A stretch of DNA of 64,000 bases from Reichenbachiella agarivorans (GTDB taxonomy: Bacteria; Bacteroidota; Bacteroidia; Cytophagales; Cyclobacteriaceae), in NCBI RefSeq assembly GCF_025502585.1, contig NZ_CP106679.1:1531001-1595000 (forward strand). Direction: 5' to 3'. Every line of letters starts with the position of its first letter. The stretch's first letter is position 1. A program made the translations under genes and the position numbers. The notes beneath the pieces are model-generated. The model had not been told where the DNA came from and did not search any database. It saw nothing but the letters and a program-made list of their open reading frames with translations. This document shows, one piece after another, positions 5,861 to 12,682 of the stretch.

Positions 5861-7504
5861 TTATTTATGTAGGATGCTTTTGTATTTGTTGGAGTCTTTG
5901 ACTGTCAGGATTGCTGTCACCACATCAGAATCACTACTCAGCGTTGCTTCTAGTACTCCTTTGTTCAGATAGTATCTACGGATGATCTCTAGTTCCAAGC
6001 GTCTTTTTATTTCTTTTTTGAAGTTGACCATGCCGTTAGATTTTAATCGGTGGATTTCGTGATTGATCCGTGTGATTTCATGATTTAGTTGGGCATACAC
6101 TTGGTCTTCATTGGCTGCTTCGCTCAGGAGTGCGATGGATTTTTCTATGTTGGATGGGTTTTCAAATTTTTGGGTGGCTACCCATTTGGCAAAGTGGTTA
6201 TATTCTTCATCTGACAATTTAAAGTCTGTAGGCTCTGCAATCTTCTCATGGGAGTAATAATATTTGGTCGCATAATCAAATACCAAACCACCGCCGATGA
6301 GGTTTTCGGTGTAGGAAGATAATTTTTCTAAGGAGACTTTGATATCAGGATCTACTCCGCCACCGTCGTACACGACACGATTATTAGCCGTGAAAAAGGC
6401 TTCTTTGACCGAGTCAGCAAAGACGAGCGCTTTGCCTTCTGCATCTTTGTGCTGGTAATCGAGCTCCTGAATACAGCGCCCACTTGGTATGTAATATTTG
6501 GCAGTTGTCACTTTGAGTTGGGAGTTATAGGATAATGGTCGGGTCACTTGTACCAGTCCCTTGCCAAACGATTTTTGGCCGATGATCACACCTCGATCAT
6601 AGTCTTGGATCACACCTGATACAATCTCAGAGGCAGAAGCACTGCCATGATCGATGAGTACAGCCATCGGTATATCTAGATCCAACGGGTCGTTTTTGGC
6701 AACATAGGACAAGCTTTGAGCTTGAGTTTTACCTCGGGTCTCCACAATGCCAGAGCCTTTGGGGACAAACAGGTTACAAATTTCGACAGCTTCATTGAGC
6801 AAGCCACCTGGGTTGCCTCGCAGATCAAAGATCAGGTATTGAGCACCTTGTTTTTTGAGTTCTTGCACAGCAGCTTGTACATCTTCTGAGGCATTTCTAG
6901 TGAACTCGCTCAATCTAAAATAACCCACATTCTCATTGAGGATTGTTTTGTAGGCGATATTGGGGATGGTGATATTTTTGCGCTCCACTTTAAAAGTGTA
7001 GGGGTGTGTGCCGTTTCGTTCTACACCGATTGATAGGGTTGTGCCAGATTGACCTTTGATCAGTTTTCCTATTTCTTCGTCACTCATGCCCTTGACTGAT
7101 TTGCCATCAATATTGACGATTTCGTCTCCGATCTTGAGTCCGGCAGTTTTGGCAGGAGACTCTTCGTACATGTTGAGTACCAAGTGTCTGTTGTTGATTC
7201 GATTGGAGAGAATCCCAATGCCGCCGTATTCGCCAGTGGCATTGGTACGAAAATCCTCAATATCGTCCTCTGGGATATAAACTGTATAGGGATCCAGCTT
7301 GTTGAGCATGGCGTCTATGCTGGTCTTGATTAGTGTGTTGGGGTTGATGTCATCTACATAGTAGGTGTTGACTTCTGAGTACAGTGAGGAAAAGATATCT
7401 ATGTTTTTGGCTATCGCAAAATAGCGGTCATCATGGGAAAAAGACCATAGGCTAAATGCTGTGATGGGAATCAGCAGCAACAGAAACAACTTTTTTCTTA
7501 ACAT
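5861..7504 (-). CDS. ctpA: C-terminal processing peptidase, S41 family (CtpA/Prc type)
   Basis: The protein has 547 residues. A hydrophobic N-terminal anchor or signal (about 5-20) is followed by a PDZ domain (about 92-175; YGGIGI and GLKIGDEIVNIDG) and an S41 catalytic domain (about 185-345). The Ser/Lys dyad can be placed at S290 in GSASASE and K315 in KSFGKGLVQ. A long charged C-terminal extension (about 350-547) follows, as in Bacteroidota members. It acts in the periplasm, cleaving misfolded or precursor proteins near their C-termini after recognition by the PDZ domain. It is the first gene of a likely minus-strand transcript including the BASS gene. Confidence 0.92.
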   Translation of the reverse strand: MLRKKLFLLLLIPITAFSLWSFSHDDRYFAIAKNIDIFSSLYSEVNTYYVDDINPNTLIKTSIDAMLNKLDPYTVYIPEDDIEDFRTNATGEYGGIGILSNRINNRHLVLNMYEESPAKTAGLKIGDEIVNIDGKSVKGMSDEEIGKLIKGQSGTTLSIGVERNGTHPYTFKVERKNITIPNIAYKTILNENVGYFRLSEFTRNASEDVQAAVQELKKQGAQYLIFDLRGNPGGLLNEAVEICNLFVPKGSGIVETRGKTQAQSLSYVAKNDPLDLDIPMAVLIDHGSASASEIVSGVIQDYDRGVIIGQKSFGKGLVQVTRPLSYNSQLKVTTAKYYIPSGRCIQELDYQHKDAEGKALVFADSVKEAFFTANNRVVYDGGGVDPDIKVSLEKLSSYTENLIGGGLVFDYATKYYYSHEKIAEPTDFKLSDEEYNHFAKWVATQKFENPSNIEKSIALLSEAANEDQVYAQLNHEITRINHEIHRLKSNGMVNFKKEIKRRLELEIIRRYYLNKGVLEATLSSDSDVVTAILTVKDSNKYKSILHK

Positions 7505-7701
7505 AACAAATCTGTTGATCTCAGATGAGGCACAAAAATATCACATTATTTTTACTCTATTGTGATTCTCAGCCACCTCATAGTTGAATGGCTAACTAGA
7601 ATTTTCGATATTTAGTTTTAAATTCAAGCATATTTCATACTACGGACAAATAGTAGAGAAGTTAAATTTTTGATCATTCAACTAATACCAACGACCAAAT
7701 A

Positions 7702-9828
7702 ATGTCGAGCATTATATTCAAAAGAAGTACCTACATCGCAGTAGCCATCTTTTCCATCATACTTGTGTCTGCGCTGGTAGCAGATTTGCATTTCTACAAT
7801 CAAGAGAGAGTGGAGGCGAGTGTAGAGATAGGATACAGCTCTAATAAGCAAATTGCCCACAAACTAGATTCTGTGCTTCAGAACATTGTGACCGTCACCC
7901 ATGAATTGGGGACTGTACTAGAAACATATGATCTCAACGAAGATCAATTGATCGGGATCATCGAGGAGGAAAGCTTTGCTTTCGACTTTATTTTGGGAAT
8001 TACAGTGGCTTATCAGCCTTACAAGTTTGATTCTACCAAGGCATTGTATGCTCCCTATTATGACAAGCGCCAACGATCTTTGATAGATATCGCTGATGTT
8101 TATGATTACACGGATTCCACACTCAGTACGGCATTGTGGTACACTCAAGTAGTCGATTCTAAGAAACCAAAATGGTCTGAACCCTATTTTGCTCATGGTG
8201 CCCAGCAAATTGTTTCAGATTATGGCGTGCCATTCTTCAAAACTATCAATGGAGAAAAAGTGGTGATTGGTACTGTTACTTTGACCATCGCTTTGGAGAG
8301 CCTAAATGACGCACTCAATTCGATTTCTATTGGTACTACAGGCTATTCATTTTTGTCCTCTGCCAAAGGAACGATTATCGCTCACCCAACCCCAAAGTAT
8401 ATTTTGAATGTGAGTTTGCAAGACATAGGCGAGGCTTTTGATATCCAATATATCTCTGAGAGGATATTGGGAGAGCAAAAGGGCTACATGGAATACAATA
8501 GCCCATACACCAATACAGAATCCTTTCTATTCTTTGAGACTCTTCCTACGACAAAATGGAAGTGCATGGTGGTATTTGCGACCAATGATTTGCTAGGCAG
8601 TCCGCTGGACAAGGGGAATAAGATTGTCAACATCAGTTTGGCCTCTTCGCTATTAATTTTGGTTTGGATTGCGCTGTTTATCAGAATATCAGAACCTACC
8701 AACAAGAAATTTTGGATCATGTCAACGGCTACCTCGGTATTGATTTTGGCCAATATTGCTGTGATATGGACTTTGAATATCAAAATGGGTTATGCTTCGG
8801 AGCAAAACTCCTCGATCAAAGTCATGAATCAAACGGAGCTCTTCAGATTCGTATTGGACGAAAACACCAGAATGCTGCAATTGGGTTATGATCCTTATAT
8901 CACGATCAATACAGGTATTTTCATCGAGGAGATTGCTATTCGAGATTCGTATAGCTTGAGTGTGAGAGGAAGGGTCTGGCAGAAGTGGCCTATTGGATTG
9001 GATGAAGAGTTTGATCCTGATTTTCATTTTGTACAGGAATCACCCATCTGGGGCACACGCAAAACCTTGATTTCTAAGATCAGCAATGAGGAGATTGGAG
9101 AAAACTATTATTTATGGGAGTTTAGTACCACGATTCAATTGGCTTTGAAGTACTCAAAATATCCATTCGATTCCCGAGATATCAATATCGAGTTGGCTTA
9201 TCCTGACTTCCAAGACAACATATGGCTGATACCTGACTTAGAAGGATACAAAGTGTTGAATCCATCTGCCTTTCCAGGGATCAATAAGAATATTTATTTT
9301 CCCAAATCTGTGCTTGAATCAACCTTTTTCTCTTTTGAGCGATTGGATTTTCAGACCTTGTTTGGTAACAACGCTTACCAAGGCGATGGTGATTATCCAG
9401 TGATGGAGTTCAATGTCAATTTGAAGCGAAGATTCCTCAATGCCTTTGTGATTAACATCATCCCTATTTTTGTGGTTGCATCTATGATTTTCTTGATCTT
9501 CTATAGCAATTCGAAGAAAAAGGACAGCAATACAGGAGTCAGTATGATGGGTGTGGTACAGAGTTGCGCGGGATTTTTCTTTGTGCTATTGGTGGCGCAT
9601 ATTGATTTGAGAAGAAGACTTTCTACACCTGAGATATCCTACATGGAGACGTTTTATTTTACGATGTACATCATGATAGGTTTATTGGCGATCAATGTTG
9701 TAGCATTTGCACAATCCAAGGAATCCAAATTCTTGCATTACGAAGACAATCTCATAGTCAAGTTGGCATATTGGCCAGTTTTGCTAGGATCATGGTTAAT
9801 TATCACCTTGACTACATTTTACAATTAG
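7702..9828 (+). CDS. Cache-sensor/pentameric ligand-gated ion channel fusion protein
   Basis: This is a 708-residue membrane protein. Order: TM helix 8-29; periplasmic double-Cache sensor about 45-295 (WYTQVVDSKKPKWSEPYF at 146-163, then VVIGTVTLTIALESL); TM helices 310-328 and 337-359; a second periplasmic beta-rich domain about 375-575; four C-terminal TM helices (581-601, 613-632, 646-670, 685-705). The second half matches pLGIC/Cys-loop-type channels. It has the Pro-loop YPFDSRDINIEL at 487-498, M1 with its central proline (FVINIIPIFVV), M2 ending in LLVAHIDLRRRL, and an M2-M3 linker TPEISYMETFYFTMY that resembles GLIC. No loop cysteines are present, as in other bacterial members. It presumably opens a pore in the inner membrane when a periplasmic ligand binds. 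The porin gene follows 6 bp later. Domain calls are by eye. Confidence 0.8.
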   Translation: MSSIIFKRSTYIAVAIFSIILVSALVADLHFYNQERVEASVEIGYSSNKQIAHKLDSVLQNIVTVTHELGTVLETYDLNEDQLIGIIEEESFAFDFILGITVAYQPYKFDSTKALYAPYYDKRQRSLIDIADVYDYTDSTLSTALWYTQVVDSKKPKWSEPYFAHGAQQIVSDYGVPFFKTINGEKVVIGTVTLTIALESLNDALNSISIGTTGYSFLSSAKGTIIAHPTPKYILNVSLQDIGEAFDIQYISERILGEQKGYMEYNSPYTNTESFLFFETLPTTKWKCMVVFATNDLLGSPLDKGNKIVNISLASSLLILVWIALFIRISEPTNKKFWIMSTATSVLILANIAVIWTLNIKMGYASEQNSSIKVMNQTELFRFVLDENTRMLQLGYDPYITINTGIFIEEIAIRDSYSLSVRGRVWQKWPIGLDEEFDPDFHFVQESPIWGTRKTLISKISNEEIGENYYLWEFSTTIQLALKYSKYPFDSRDINIELAYPDFQDNIWLIPDLEGYKVLNPSAFPGINKNIYFPKSVLESTFFSFERLDFQTLFGNNAYQGDGDYPVMEFNVNLKRRFLNAFVINIIPIFVVASMIFLIFYSNSKKKDSNTGVSMMGVVQSCAGFFFVLLVAHIDLRRRLSTPEISYMETFYFTMYIMIGLLAINVVAFAQSKESKFLHYEDNLIVKLAYWPVLLGSWLIITLTTFYN

Positions 9829-9834
9829 GGTGAA

Positions 9835-10932
9835 ATGAATCTACATAGTATTTTAGTCATTATACTATTATTTCTATTCATGAGTCAAGTGTACGGGCAA
9901 GGTGAAAGCGTCAAAGACTTGGCCATAGGAGGAGCGATTCGTGCCAATTATTTTGTCAAATCGTGGGATGACCCAAATAAAAAGAAAGGTGGAGAGTTGG
10001 CCTATGATATGATTCGATTTGATGTCAATGCCAACTACAAGAATGTGATTGCCTCAGGCCAGATTCGCTTCTACTCCAGTGCCTATGGTGGGATTTTGAT
10101 CCATCATGCTTATATGGGATACAAGTTCGACGACTATTCCGAAATCCATCTTGGTATCAGCCAAGTTCCTTTTGGGATTCAGACGTACGCCTCCAACAAC
10201 TGGTTTTTCAACATCAACTATTATGTCGGTTTGGAAGATGACTATGATATGGGGCTCAAATATGTGTACCAAAAGGAGAAAGTGGGATTTGCGGCGGCTT
10301 TTTACAAGAACAGTGAATTTCCTGCCGACAATTTTTCGAGATATTCCTATGATGTCACAGGTACGCAGAATGAAGTGAATCAAGGCAATTTGAAATTCAC
10401 TTACACAGTGGCAAATGTAGAGTTGGGTGCATCACTGCAAGTCGGACAGTTGGAGGAAACAGCTACTGGTGATCTGGGCAGCCAATCAGCCTATGCTCTG
10501 CATGCACATGGTACTTTCGGACATTTTGATATGAAACTACAGGCTAGCTACTACCACATGTCACCGCGTGGTCCTGACAAAGATGTTGTATATATGTCCG
10601 CGTATGGCGCTGAATACCAAGTAGCAACTGAGGCATATTCTTATACTTTGGGCTTGATGTACAGCATCCCCATAGATAAAGGGCCTATCCAAACTTTGGA
10701 TGTCTACAATGATTTTGGCTACATCATGAAGGCTACCGATGGATTTGCAGATTCGAAGATGAATGTACTCGGCGTGGGTGTCAACATGGGTAAGATGTAC
10801 ACCTATGTAGATTGGGCCATGGGCAAAAATCATGCTTGGCTAGGTCCAGAATGGACAGGTGCATTTGCTGCTGGTCAGGCAGATGCAGACTGGAACACCC
10901 GTTTCAACATTAATTTTGGCTATTATTTCTAA
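9835..10932 (+). CDS. Outer-membrane porin (OprO/OprP- or DcaP-like beta-barrel)
   Basis: The protein has 365 residues with a cleavable signal peptide (to about SQVYG-Q at 22). It has many alternating amphipathic strands and ends in the aromatic outer-membrane signature FNINFGYYF. Segments such as AIGGAIRANYFVKSWD, DVNANYKNVIASGQIRFY and SEIHLGISQVPFG resemble 16-strand phosphate-selective-porin-type barrels. It should form a passive channel for small anions or solutes. It begins 6 bp after the channel gene stop with GGGTGA just upstream, so it is almost certainly in the same operon. Its 3' end overlaps the convergent K+ channel gene by 23 bp. Confidence 0.8.
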   Translation: MNLHSILVIILLFLFMSQVYGQGESVKDLAIGGAIRANYFVKSWDDPNKKKGGELAYDMIRFDVNANYKNVIASGQIRFYSSAYGGILIHHAYMGYKFDDYSEIHLGISQVPFGIQTYASNNWFFNINYYVGLEDDYDMGLKYVYQKEKVGFAAAFYKNSEFPADNFSRYSYDVTGTQNEVNQGNLKFTYTVANVELGASLQVGQLEETATGDLGSQSAYALHAHGTFGHFDMKLQASYYHMSPRGPDKDVVYMSAYGAEYQVATEAYSYTLGLMYSIPIDKGPIQTLDVYNDFGYIMKATDGFADSKMNVLGVGVNMGKMYTYVDWAMGKNHAWLGPEWTGAFAAGQADADWNTRFNINFGYYF

Positions 10933-11749
10933 GGAGATTTTCACCGCAATTGAGACAATAATTGGATCTTTTGGGGAGATCGTTGGAGCCACAATTGCTA
11001 CAGGTGACTGAATTGAGTCTTCTTTCACTTTGCATGATTTCACTCGTGACGATACCCGTAGGTACAGCCAGGATCGCATAACCAATGATCATGAGCGCTG
11101 ATGCCAGGCTCTGACCCAGCAAGGTTTGTGGCGCAATATCTCCATATCCTACGGTAGTGATGGTCACAATAGACCAATAGATACTTTTGGGGATGCTGGT
11201 GAAGCCGTTTTTACCACCTTCTATGATGTACATCAAAGTGCCAATGATCACGACTATGCACAGTACACTGCCCAAAAAGACGATGATCTTGTGACGGCTG
11301 TACCAAAGGGCATTCCCCAGTTGCTCCGCTCCTCCCATAAAATGGGTCAATTTCAATATCCTGAATACCCTGATCAAGCGAATCGCCCGAATGACAGACA
11401 AAGCATGTGTGCCATCTATGAAAATACCCAGATAGGTTGGAATCAAGGAGAGCAAATCTATGATCCCCATAAAACTCAATACATAACGGAGTGGTTTGGG
11501 TGAGCAGGCTATTCTGGCGATATATTCGACAGAAAACAAGAACGTGAATATCCATTCTATGATTTTGAGTTGAACTCGATACGATCGATTCACCTCTTGT
11601 ACGCTCTCCAACATGACCGTCAGGACACTGGCCAAAATGACCAAAAGCAGAGCAACATCGAAGAGTTTTCCTCCGGTAGTTTCATAACCAAAGATGATTT
11701 CATGAATCTTCTTTTGCCAATTTTTGAGTTGGGAGAGATCTTCTGCCAT
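10910..11749 (-). CDS. Voltage-gated potassium channel with C-terminal zinc ribbon
   Basis: This 279-residue protein has six membrane segments of Kv type. S4 carries positive residues at every third position, R121, R124, R127, R130 and K133 (RAIRLIRVFRILK). The K+ selectivity filter TVGYGD spans 199-204 between S5 and S6. After S6 there is a short cytoplasmic tail ending in a zinc-ribbon-like motif with C250-x2-C253 and C265-x2-C268, which replaces the usual RCK or cyclic-nucleotide domain. It should conduct K+ across the inner membrane in a voltage-dependent way; a role for the ribbon in assembly or redox/metal control is inference. It lies downstream of the solute-binding protein gene with a large inverted repeat between them. 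Confidence 0.92.
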   Translation of the reverse strand: MAEDLSQLKNWQKKIHEIIFGYETTGGKLFDVALLLVILASVLTVMLESVQEVNRSYRVQLKIIEWIFTFLFSVEYIARIACSPKPLRYVLSFMGIIDLLSLIPTYLGIFIDGTHALSVIRAIRLIRVFRILKLTHFMGGAEQLGNALWYSRHKIIVFLGSVLCIVVIIGTLMYIIEGGKNGFTSIPKSIYWSIVTITTVGYGDIAPQTLLGQSLASALMIIGYAILAVPTGIVTSEIMQSERRLNSVTCSNCGSNDLPKRSNYCLNCGENLLRNNSQN

Positions 11750-11878: not shown

Positions 11879-12682
11879 TTATTCAACTTGAAGCAACCAC
11901 ATGCCGTTCTCCAACCATTTTTTGTTCAACTCGTCCAAGATTCCCGCCAATTGCAACGAGTTCATGTAGTTCTGAACCAGATTGAGAAACAAAGCATCTT
12001 CTTGTGGTAGTGCCGCACCAATTGGCTCCAAAGTCAATGGCTCGCTCAGGCTCACAATTCCTTCATGACCGTATTTCAAAGACGAAACCAAAGTAAATGG
12101 GTAATCCGCAACAACTGCTTTGACTACATCGTCTCTGAGCATTTTTATGGCTTCATCATAACTGCTGGTAGGCTGAATATCTGCATTGGTCATGTATGAT
12201 TTAGCAAAAGCCTCGCTTGTAGAGCCTTCTAATACTGCCACACGCATGTTAGGATTTTGGTTGACATCCTCTGTGCTTTGTGACCTAGATAGCAACTTGG
12301 ACTTGGTCAGGATAGATTTGCCTGAGATCATGTATGGACCCACAAAGGCCACCCTCATGTTGCGCTCAGGAGTAATCGTCATACCAGACATCACTATATC
12401 TACTTTGCCATCTTCCAAAGCAGGGATCAAGTTGTGAAACTCCATCGGTACGAGTGTTAGTTTCACGCTCATAGATTCTGCCAACATGGTAGCCAGGTCG
12501 ATTTCATATCCGATGTAATCCCCCGTTTTAGCCTTCATCGCAAAGGGTGGCTGGTTGCCCGTGATACCTACTCTGATCTCACCTTTTTTGATGATTTGTT
12601 TCAAAGTGGCCTGAGCCATTGCTGCTGTGCTCACCACGCAGACGAGAAGTATTAGAGATACGACTGTTTTTAATTGTCTCAT
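11879..12682 (-). CDS. Periplasmic amino-acid-binding protein (SBP family 3)
   Basis: The 267-residue protein has a signal peptide ending near AAMAQ (about 23). A family 3 solute-binding fold follows: GEIRVGITGNQPPFAMK, then GYEIDLATMLAE and VDIVMSGMTITPERNMRVAFVGPY. Such proteins bind polar amino acids between two lobes and normally feed an ABC importer or, as fused domains, gate ionotropic receptors. No permease or ATPase gene is nearby; its neighbours are an OmpA-like gene (39 bp upstream) and a K+ channel (downstream). It therefore looks like an orphan ligand-binding protein. A link to the nearby channels is attractive but only inferred. Confidence 0.85.
   Translation of the reverse strand: MRQLKTVVSLILLVCVVSTAAMAQATLKQIIKKGEIRVGITGNQPPFAMKAKTGDYIGYEIDLATMLAESMSVKLTLVPMEFHNLIPALEDGKVDIVMSGMTITPERNMRVAFVGPYMISGKSILTKSKLLSRSQSTEDVNQNPNMRVAVLEGSTSEAFAKSYMTNADIQPTSSYDEAIKMLRDDVVKAVVADYPFTLVSSLKYGHEGIVSLSEPLTLEPIGAALPQEDALFLNLVQNYMNSLQLAGILDELNKKWLENGMWLLQVE

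Follow-up and report, generated by a model that had tools for sequence, protein, structure and literature searches.

The stretch of Reichenbachiella agarivorans DNA analyzed here (64,000 nucleotides of contig NZ_CP106679.1, hereafter the window) contains a gene whose product joins a double Cache (dCache) sensor to a pentameric ligand-gated ion channel (pLGIC). The gene occupies positions 7702..9828 of the plus strand and encodes 708 amino acids in a single frame that begins with ATG and contains no internal stops. This Cache-pLGIC is a true, intact and widely distributed protein. Judging from its sequence and a structural model, it is probably a sensor-gated ion channel subunit belonging to a widespread, little-studied family. 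A first-pass annotation of the window had read a dCache domain, a transmembrane (TM) hairpin and a full pLGIC in this one frame, and the dCache_1, profile and model evidence agree on that reading.

Sequence and model together strongly support a layout in which an N-terminal helix would anchor the dCache domain and the chain would then cross the membrane twice before forming the extracellular domain (ECD) and, after it, the four-helix channel domain. The AlphaFold2 model of the 708-residue chain, built on a 20-row full-length alignment, has a pLDDT of 80.3 and a pTM of 0.67. Its first helix spans residues 2-75 and includes the N-terminal TM helix (residues ~11-29 by hydropathy, 7732..7788), which runs on into the first Cache helix. 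The sensor (about residues 45-296; Pfam match 49-287, 7846..8562) is followed in the model by a hairpin of two helices, 301-329 and 334-362 (8602..8787), and then by a beta-rich ECD (residues 366-576, 8797..9429) carrying the YPFD Pro-loop at 487-490. The chain ends in the channel domain (9433..9819), which consists of M1 (578-603), M2 (615-640), M3 (647-671) and M4 (684-706); all of these features are on the plus strand. With the pre-Cache helix, the hairpin pair and M1-M4, there are seven membrane helices, consistent with a topology that would put the Cache domain, the ECD and the C-terminus outside and the short hairpin turn inside. The pattern recurs among aligned homologues: two hydrophobic segments separate Cache and ECD in all 20, one precedes the Cache domain in each of the 17 that extend far enough, and four lie in the channel domain in 18 of 20, L071 and L087 having three. 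Inside the ECD of L096 there is one unexpected hydrophobic segment. A Foldseek search with the single modeled chain returned both dCache and GLIC/GABA-A structures.

The sensor half was the easier one to identify. Pfam dCache_1 matches it with an E-value of 1.9e-13 and 51 bits, over the curated cut-off of 45, which bears out the earlier assignment of residues ~45-295 to this family. Among PDB sequences, the sensor half matches dCache domains that belong to histidine kinases or chemoreceptors (3lib, E 6.4e-14), and Foldseek with the model again found 3lib (E 2.3e-13, TM-score 0.81 by target). Among 20 family members, 17 match dCache_1 at E<=1, some of them (L002 and L011, for example) under the cut-off. 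According to the accessible text of PMC10104139, the amino-acid-binding motif of dCache_1AA domains includes an Arg (PctA R126) and an Asp (D173). At the positions inferred to correspond, by alignment with 6iop, the window protein has A144 (two residues before W146) and T195. An amino-acid or amine ligand was rejected for this reason, and with two motif residues absent no ligand can be assigned.

Similar dCache modules occur in the same phylum, joined through HAMP to a histidine kinase (L014:493-2511, minus strand) and to a SpoIIE phosphatase (L018:595-2520, minus strand). In the window's own genome MCPsignal matches at 12 places, in open frames as long as 1277 aa, which indicates that chemoreceptor-type proteins exist beside the channel. 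In a FastTree phylogeny of Cache halves (40 sequences), the Reichenbachiella-type Cache falls beside non-channel Caches of the kinase/phosphatase type and not beside other channel Caches (support 0.83). Sensor swapping is not claimed from this tree, as its deep supports are low and its non-channel rows were picked by their match to the window protein.

The channel half required more sensitive comparisons. Single-sequence evidence for it is thin, because a Pfam scan of the second half gave nothing at E<=1, Neur_chan_LBD and Neur_chan_memb included, and phmmer against PDB sequences gave a weak match of residues 564-669 to the nicotinic acetylcholine receptor alpha-7 (E 0.12). Neither of the two Pfam channel models matches any of 20 channel halves at E<=1. 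In contrast, hhalign aligned this half with six standalone Bacteroidota channels over 276 columns (probability 99.4, E 6.1e-22), and those six match GLIC, ELIC and chimeras at 3e-30 to 9e-25 (best 60 of 272 matches). A 20-row profile of channel halves (A4), made from the window protein and loci chosen among the 36 described below, found GLIC in the PDB with an E-value of 0.0011 for the whole sequence and 0.008 for a single stretch, collinear from the ECD to M3; the best 60 of its 111 matches are all pLGICs or pLGIC chimeras, GABA-A receptors included. The profile of the first seven sequences (A2), six of them from one distant family (f18), gave no PDB match at E<=10, which we take as a sampling effect because the more diverse A4 found GLIC and GABA-A receptors. 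Foldseek matched the model to GLIC (6f10, E 1.9e-12, TM-score 0.72 by target), with the expected beta-sandwich ECD and four-helix TM domain. Since the fold and profile comparisons both identify a pLGIC, we read the Pfam miss as a limit of the channel models. Hence, on profile and model grounds, the second half is a complete but divergent pLGIC unit. The tests named in advance as able to overturn this assignment, a pLGIC match and four C-terminal TM helices, came out in its favor at the level of a single chain, although the Neur_chan families suggested for the check found nothing.

The details of the sequence fit this assignment. The Pro-loop proline P488 and the M1 proline P588, both singled out by the first-pass annotation, are invariant in all 20 rows, and Y487 and D490 are nearly so; the 14 invariant columns also include D512, Y516, R637 and E649. 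The complete ECD carries a signature around PDLE(S/G)Y that is conserved. The close similarity to GLIC proposed for the M2-M3 region is real as a resemblance but weak as sequence. In a rough M2 register, counted back ungapped from the hhalign alignment with GLIC numbering, G617, F627 and R637 presumably occupy positions -1', 9' and 19'. The G617 column contains G, E, D, N, S, I, A and R across the 20 rows and is so mixed that no ion selectivity was called from M2.

Relatives were gathered from 395 genomes of the same phylum and then by one scan of named genomes, in which strict peptide patterns, which can miss members, matched 95 stretches, 36 of them encoding relatives. The same domain order is found elsewhere: both halves are covered (from residue <=54 to >=706) in 23 of the 36 loci. 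These come from cyanobacteria (Brasilonema, RYN_339), gammaproteobacteria (Kangiellaceae, Aliikangiella, Pseudoalteromonas phenolica and others), Desulfoluna, Chloroflexaceae, Dependentiae, Chlorobiaceae and Reichenbachiella (Cytophagales), which makes six phyla when Chlorobiaceae are placed in Bacteroidota; several of these come from metagenome assemblies. Of the named relatives, the full-length protein of Reichenbachiella agariperforans DSM 26134 (L061) is the closest, with 78% identity. A Myxococcota locus (L065) matches from residue 97, and partial matches occur in Nitrospirales (L082, residues 12-576, contig end) and Treponema (L091, 373-707). The 493-aa relative in Candidatus Parabeggiatoa (L078:333-1814) apparently starts near the TM hairpin and is possibly a Cache-less or broken gene, and in Desulfoluna butyratoxydans (L072) the match covers 6001-7925 and the frame is open only from 6429, i.e. 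the copy is interrupted or mis-sequenced.

Within the phylum sample, near-full-scoring matches in open frames of at least 720 aa occur in 15 of 395 genomes, the window's own included, and the other 9 matching genomes have standalone-type channels or fragments. The family sample has frames of about 700 aa in 5 of 118 genomes (a sixth matches in a 63-residue frame only), and in the genus sample 7 of 8 genomes carry a Cache-pLGIC. Viral contigs scanned with A1 gave 67 pattern matches, with no relative among them. The family is probably under-counted in genome annotation because the Pfam channel models miss it.

Comparison within the genus shows where these proteins change. Between the window protein and its R. 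agariperforans counterpart, M2 is identical at 26 of 26 residues, with 17 of 24 scorable codons synonymously changed, and identity is 70% in the dCache domain and 83% in the ECD; synonymous codon changes exceed or nearly equal replacement changes in every segment. Genome G459 carries two head-to-tail Cache-pLGIC genes with a 6-bp gap between them (L104, 4877-7003 and 7010-9115), whose products share 35% of the dCache domain, 39% of the ECD and all of M2 (26/26). We compared 11 of 13 planned pairs from 13 sequences, the window's own included and paralogue G508a left out. M2 identity is 92-100% in these pairs, the highest or tied-highest of any segment, and dCache identity is 33-79%. By these alignments, M2 is the most conserved, slowest segment within the genus. 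Two closely spaced copies are present by coordinates in G508, G509 and G510 as well, which brings the number of genus genomes with a pair to four of eight; the window's genome has a single copy. The more distant family members G468 and G506 have only 13 of the 26 M2 residues in common.

The surroundings of the gene were also compared. A porin-like gene (9835..10932, plus strand) starts 6 bp after it and probably shares its transcript; its Porin_O_P match (E 0.006) is under the cut-off, whereas that of the G459 counterpart is over it (E 5.7e-5). Convergent with these lies a gene for a voltage-gated-type cation channel (Ion_trans, E 1.1e-35; 10910..11749, minus strand), followed by one for a stand-alone periplasmic binding protein of type II (SBP_bac_3, E 7e-32; 11879..12682, minus strand). 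R. agariperforans has the Ion_trans and binding-protein counterparts near its gene, G459 has counterparts of all three neighbors, and in G508 an SBP_bac_3 gene lies about 2 kb from the Cache-pLGIC copies. Promoter searches found 10 sigma-70-like promoters, no more than in shuffled sequence (mean 10.6), and no match to a Bacteroidota-type pattern.

Farther afield, neighbors were counted at 31 of the 36 loci (all but L079, L082, L085, L094 and L095), which are not independent, as 12 are from Chlorobiaceae. At least one downstream gene was scanned with Pfam at each of the 31, and no family was found for L075, L078, L087 and L096. Six of the 31 loci, representing three lineages, have a type I binding-protein gene directly downstream on the same strand, at 13 bp (L064), 32 bp (L068), 2 bp (L076) and 17 bp (L066 and L072) or with a 1-bp overlap (L067). 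In Brasilonema (L063) the binding-protein gene is adjacent but convergent. As the seven genomes checked contain only 6-15 Peripla_BP_6 matches each, such adjacency is unlikely to be due to chance. The remaining 24 loci have varied downstream genes, among them UPF0114, two-partner-secretion, TRAP transporter, kinase, nitroreductase and tRNA synthetase genes, so the binding-protein link belongs to some lineages and not to the whole family.

Several of these neighbors deserve a description of their own. In the two Desulfoluna loci (L066:8013-10853 and L072:7946-10792, both plus strand) the gene 17 bp downstream encodes a Peripla_BP_6/ANF_receptor domain fused to an MscS-type channel, with MS_channel_2nd in both and MS_channel_3rd in L066 as well. 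Four Chlorobiaceae loci have a UPF0114 membrane protein after the Cache-pLGIC (L074:8160-8702, L083:8123-8653, L088:8013-8561 and L092:8127-8672, all plus strand), and another has a Bestrophin-like protein before it (L096:4791-5570, plus strand). Downstream genes for two-partner secretion, either an ShlB-type transporter or a TPS-domain exoprotein, occur in five Chlorobiaceae (L077, L080, L081, L086 and L090).

A mechanism can be proposed for such a protein. The sensor and the ECD would face the periplasm, and five subunits would form a pore lined by M2. The ligand would either be bound by the dCache domain directly or be brought by a periplasmic binding protein docking on it, following the logic of LuxP and LuxQ. 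Its arrival would move the hairpin and the adjoining ECD and gate the pore, and signaling would then proceed through altered membrane potential or ion content and not through phosphorylation. A second ligand may still bind at the classical inter-subunit site of the channel's own ECD. We infer the direct coupling of chemosensing to ion flux, and likewise gating, ligand and ion selectivity. A more elaborate version, in which a ligand-loaded binding protein would open the pentameric pore by docking on the dCache domain, in the manner of LuxP and LuxQ, and in which tandem paralogues with a common pore sequence and different sensors would mix in pentamers that integrate several chemical signals, appears doubtful.

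It is somewhat doubtful, too, that the Cache domain is only an accessory that modulates assembly, stability or gating speed while the real agonist binds the pLGIC ECD, as could be argued from DeCLIC. The ECD is indeed complete, and its PDLE(S/G)Y signature is conserved. However, within the genus it is the sensors that diverge most while the pore stays fixed, as would be expected if the sensors carried the specificity, and binding-protein genes recur beside the Cache-pLGIC gene. We consider it very unlikely that the protein is a non-conducting receptor, whose channel fold would relay a conformational signal to some partner, for instance the neighboring voltage-gated-type channel. Such a role would accommodate G617, which in the rough register leaves the presumed -1' position of M2 without a clearly acidic residue, and the retention of the Ion_trans neighbor in three genomes, but it sits poorly with M2 being the most constrained segment in the genus and with M1-M4 keeping the pLGIC order. 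An annotation artefact, either a decayed fusion or two genes mistaken for a single one, is extremely improbable: nothing about the window gene suggests it, and the interrupted frame belongs to the distant relative L072, whereas full-length single frames conserved in the window, R. agariperforans and distant phyla refute it, and the balance of synonymous and replacement changes noted above also speaks against it.

A sensor-gated channel thus remains the preferred reading, and the use of the same sensor class to drive the L014 kinase and the L018 phosphatase speaks for it. Several observations nevertheless weigh against it. The model covers one chain, and the pentamer and its conductance stay predicted. 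The dCache sensors of chemoreceptors and kinases are usually dimeric, which is at odds with five-fold symmetry, and here Ala and Thr replace the Arg and Asp of the amino-acid motif. The binding-protein gene of the window is convergent, separated from the channel gene by two others and outside its operon; three of the seven channel-bearing genus genomes (G509, G510 and G511) have no SBP_bac_3 gene near the Cache-pLGIC, and 25 of the 31 loci have no co-directional binding-protein gene downstream. Finally, synonymous change in the G459 pair is lower in M2 (9/24) than outside M1-M3 (132/221), and the window and G459 orthologues show the same dip (7/24 versus 273/460). Because of this reduction, the M2 identity of the pair could be due in part to gene conversion or to constraint at the codon level.

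We take the combination once called MCP-N plus Cache to be what is now named dCache. In its accessible text, Tasneem et al. 2004 (PMC549065) reported fusions of this combination to the N-terminus of pLGICs in Methanosarcina, Cytophaga and Microbulbifer and predicted a role in chemoreception, so the novelty suggested for the arrangement does not hold. The window protein resembles their ART-LGICs in having a Cache-type sensor N-terminal to a ligand-binding domain and a four-TM channel in one chain, and the same text notes PBP-II genes near some bacterial pLGIC genes, as near the Cache-pLGIC here. It describes an N-terminal signal peptide and does not mention a TM hairpin, whereas the window protein has one; this comparison is by description only. 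No 2004 names from Cytophaga, Microbulbifer or Methanosarcina are among the 36 loci, as scanned with patterns strict enough to miss them. Jaiteh et al. 2016 (PMC4795631), in the part accessible, discarded terminal parts and held that biological conclusions on such associations need experiments. A literature search confined to open-licence papers, mostly at the level of search listings, found no later work on Cache-fused pLGICs.

Other known systems differ in instructive ways. The fold, Pro-loop and M1 proline of the channel half are common to GLIC, with the profile match collinear, but GLIC is not known to have a sensor domain. The window protein adds an N-terminal three-TM sensor module, a longer loop after the PDLEGY stretch and, near the outer end of M2, Arg R637, invariant in the 20-row family. 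DeCLIC, another bacterial pLGIC, likewise has a large N-terminal domain of two lobes and is not known to contain a TM hairpin. The parallel drawn with DeCLIC stands for the presence of an extra domain and is otherwise loose: according to the accessible text of PMC12664993, its lobes are jelly rolls related to Ca-binding domains, whereas those of the window protein are Cache, and the word "Cache" is absent from the main text of that 2025 paper as accessed. Compared with dCache kinases and methyl-accepting chemotaxis proteins (MCPs), the output is a channel, not a HAMP-kinase or MCP module, and the post-Cache helix runs into the hairpin instead of into HAMP. In summary, the outline of the Cache-pLGIC kind dates from 2004, and the window gene is a good new example, not a new kind; the topology details (the hairpin), the paralogue pattern and the binding-protein neighborhood are useful additions.

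The window protein combines an external chemical sensor with an ion channel from the family of human nerve receptors, for which bacterial pLGICs serve as structural models. Many bacterial pLGICs have no known natural agonist. As dCache ligands can be found by thermal-shift or calorimetry screens, the fusion offers a direct route to the physiological signal of a bacterial pLGIC. A Cache-pLGIC also allows one to see how an add-on sensor gates a conserved pore, and the combination of identical pore helices with diverging sensors is a natural experiment in modular receptor evolution.
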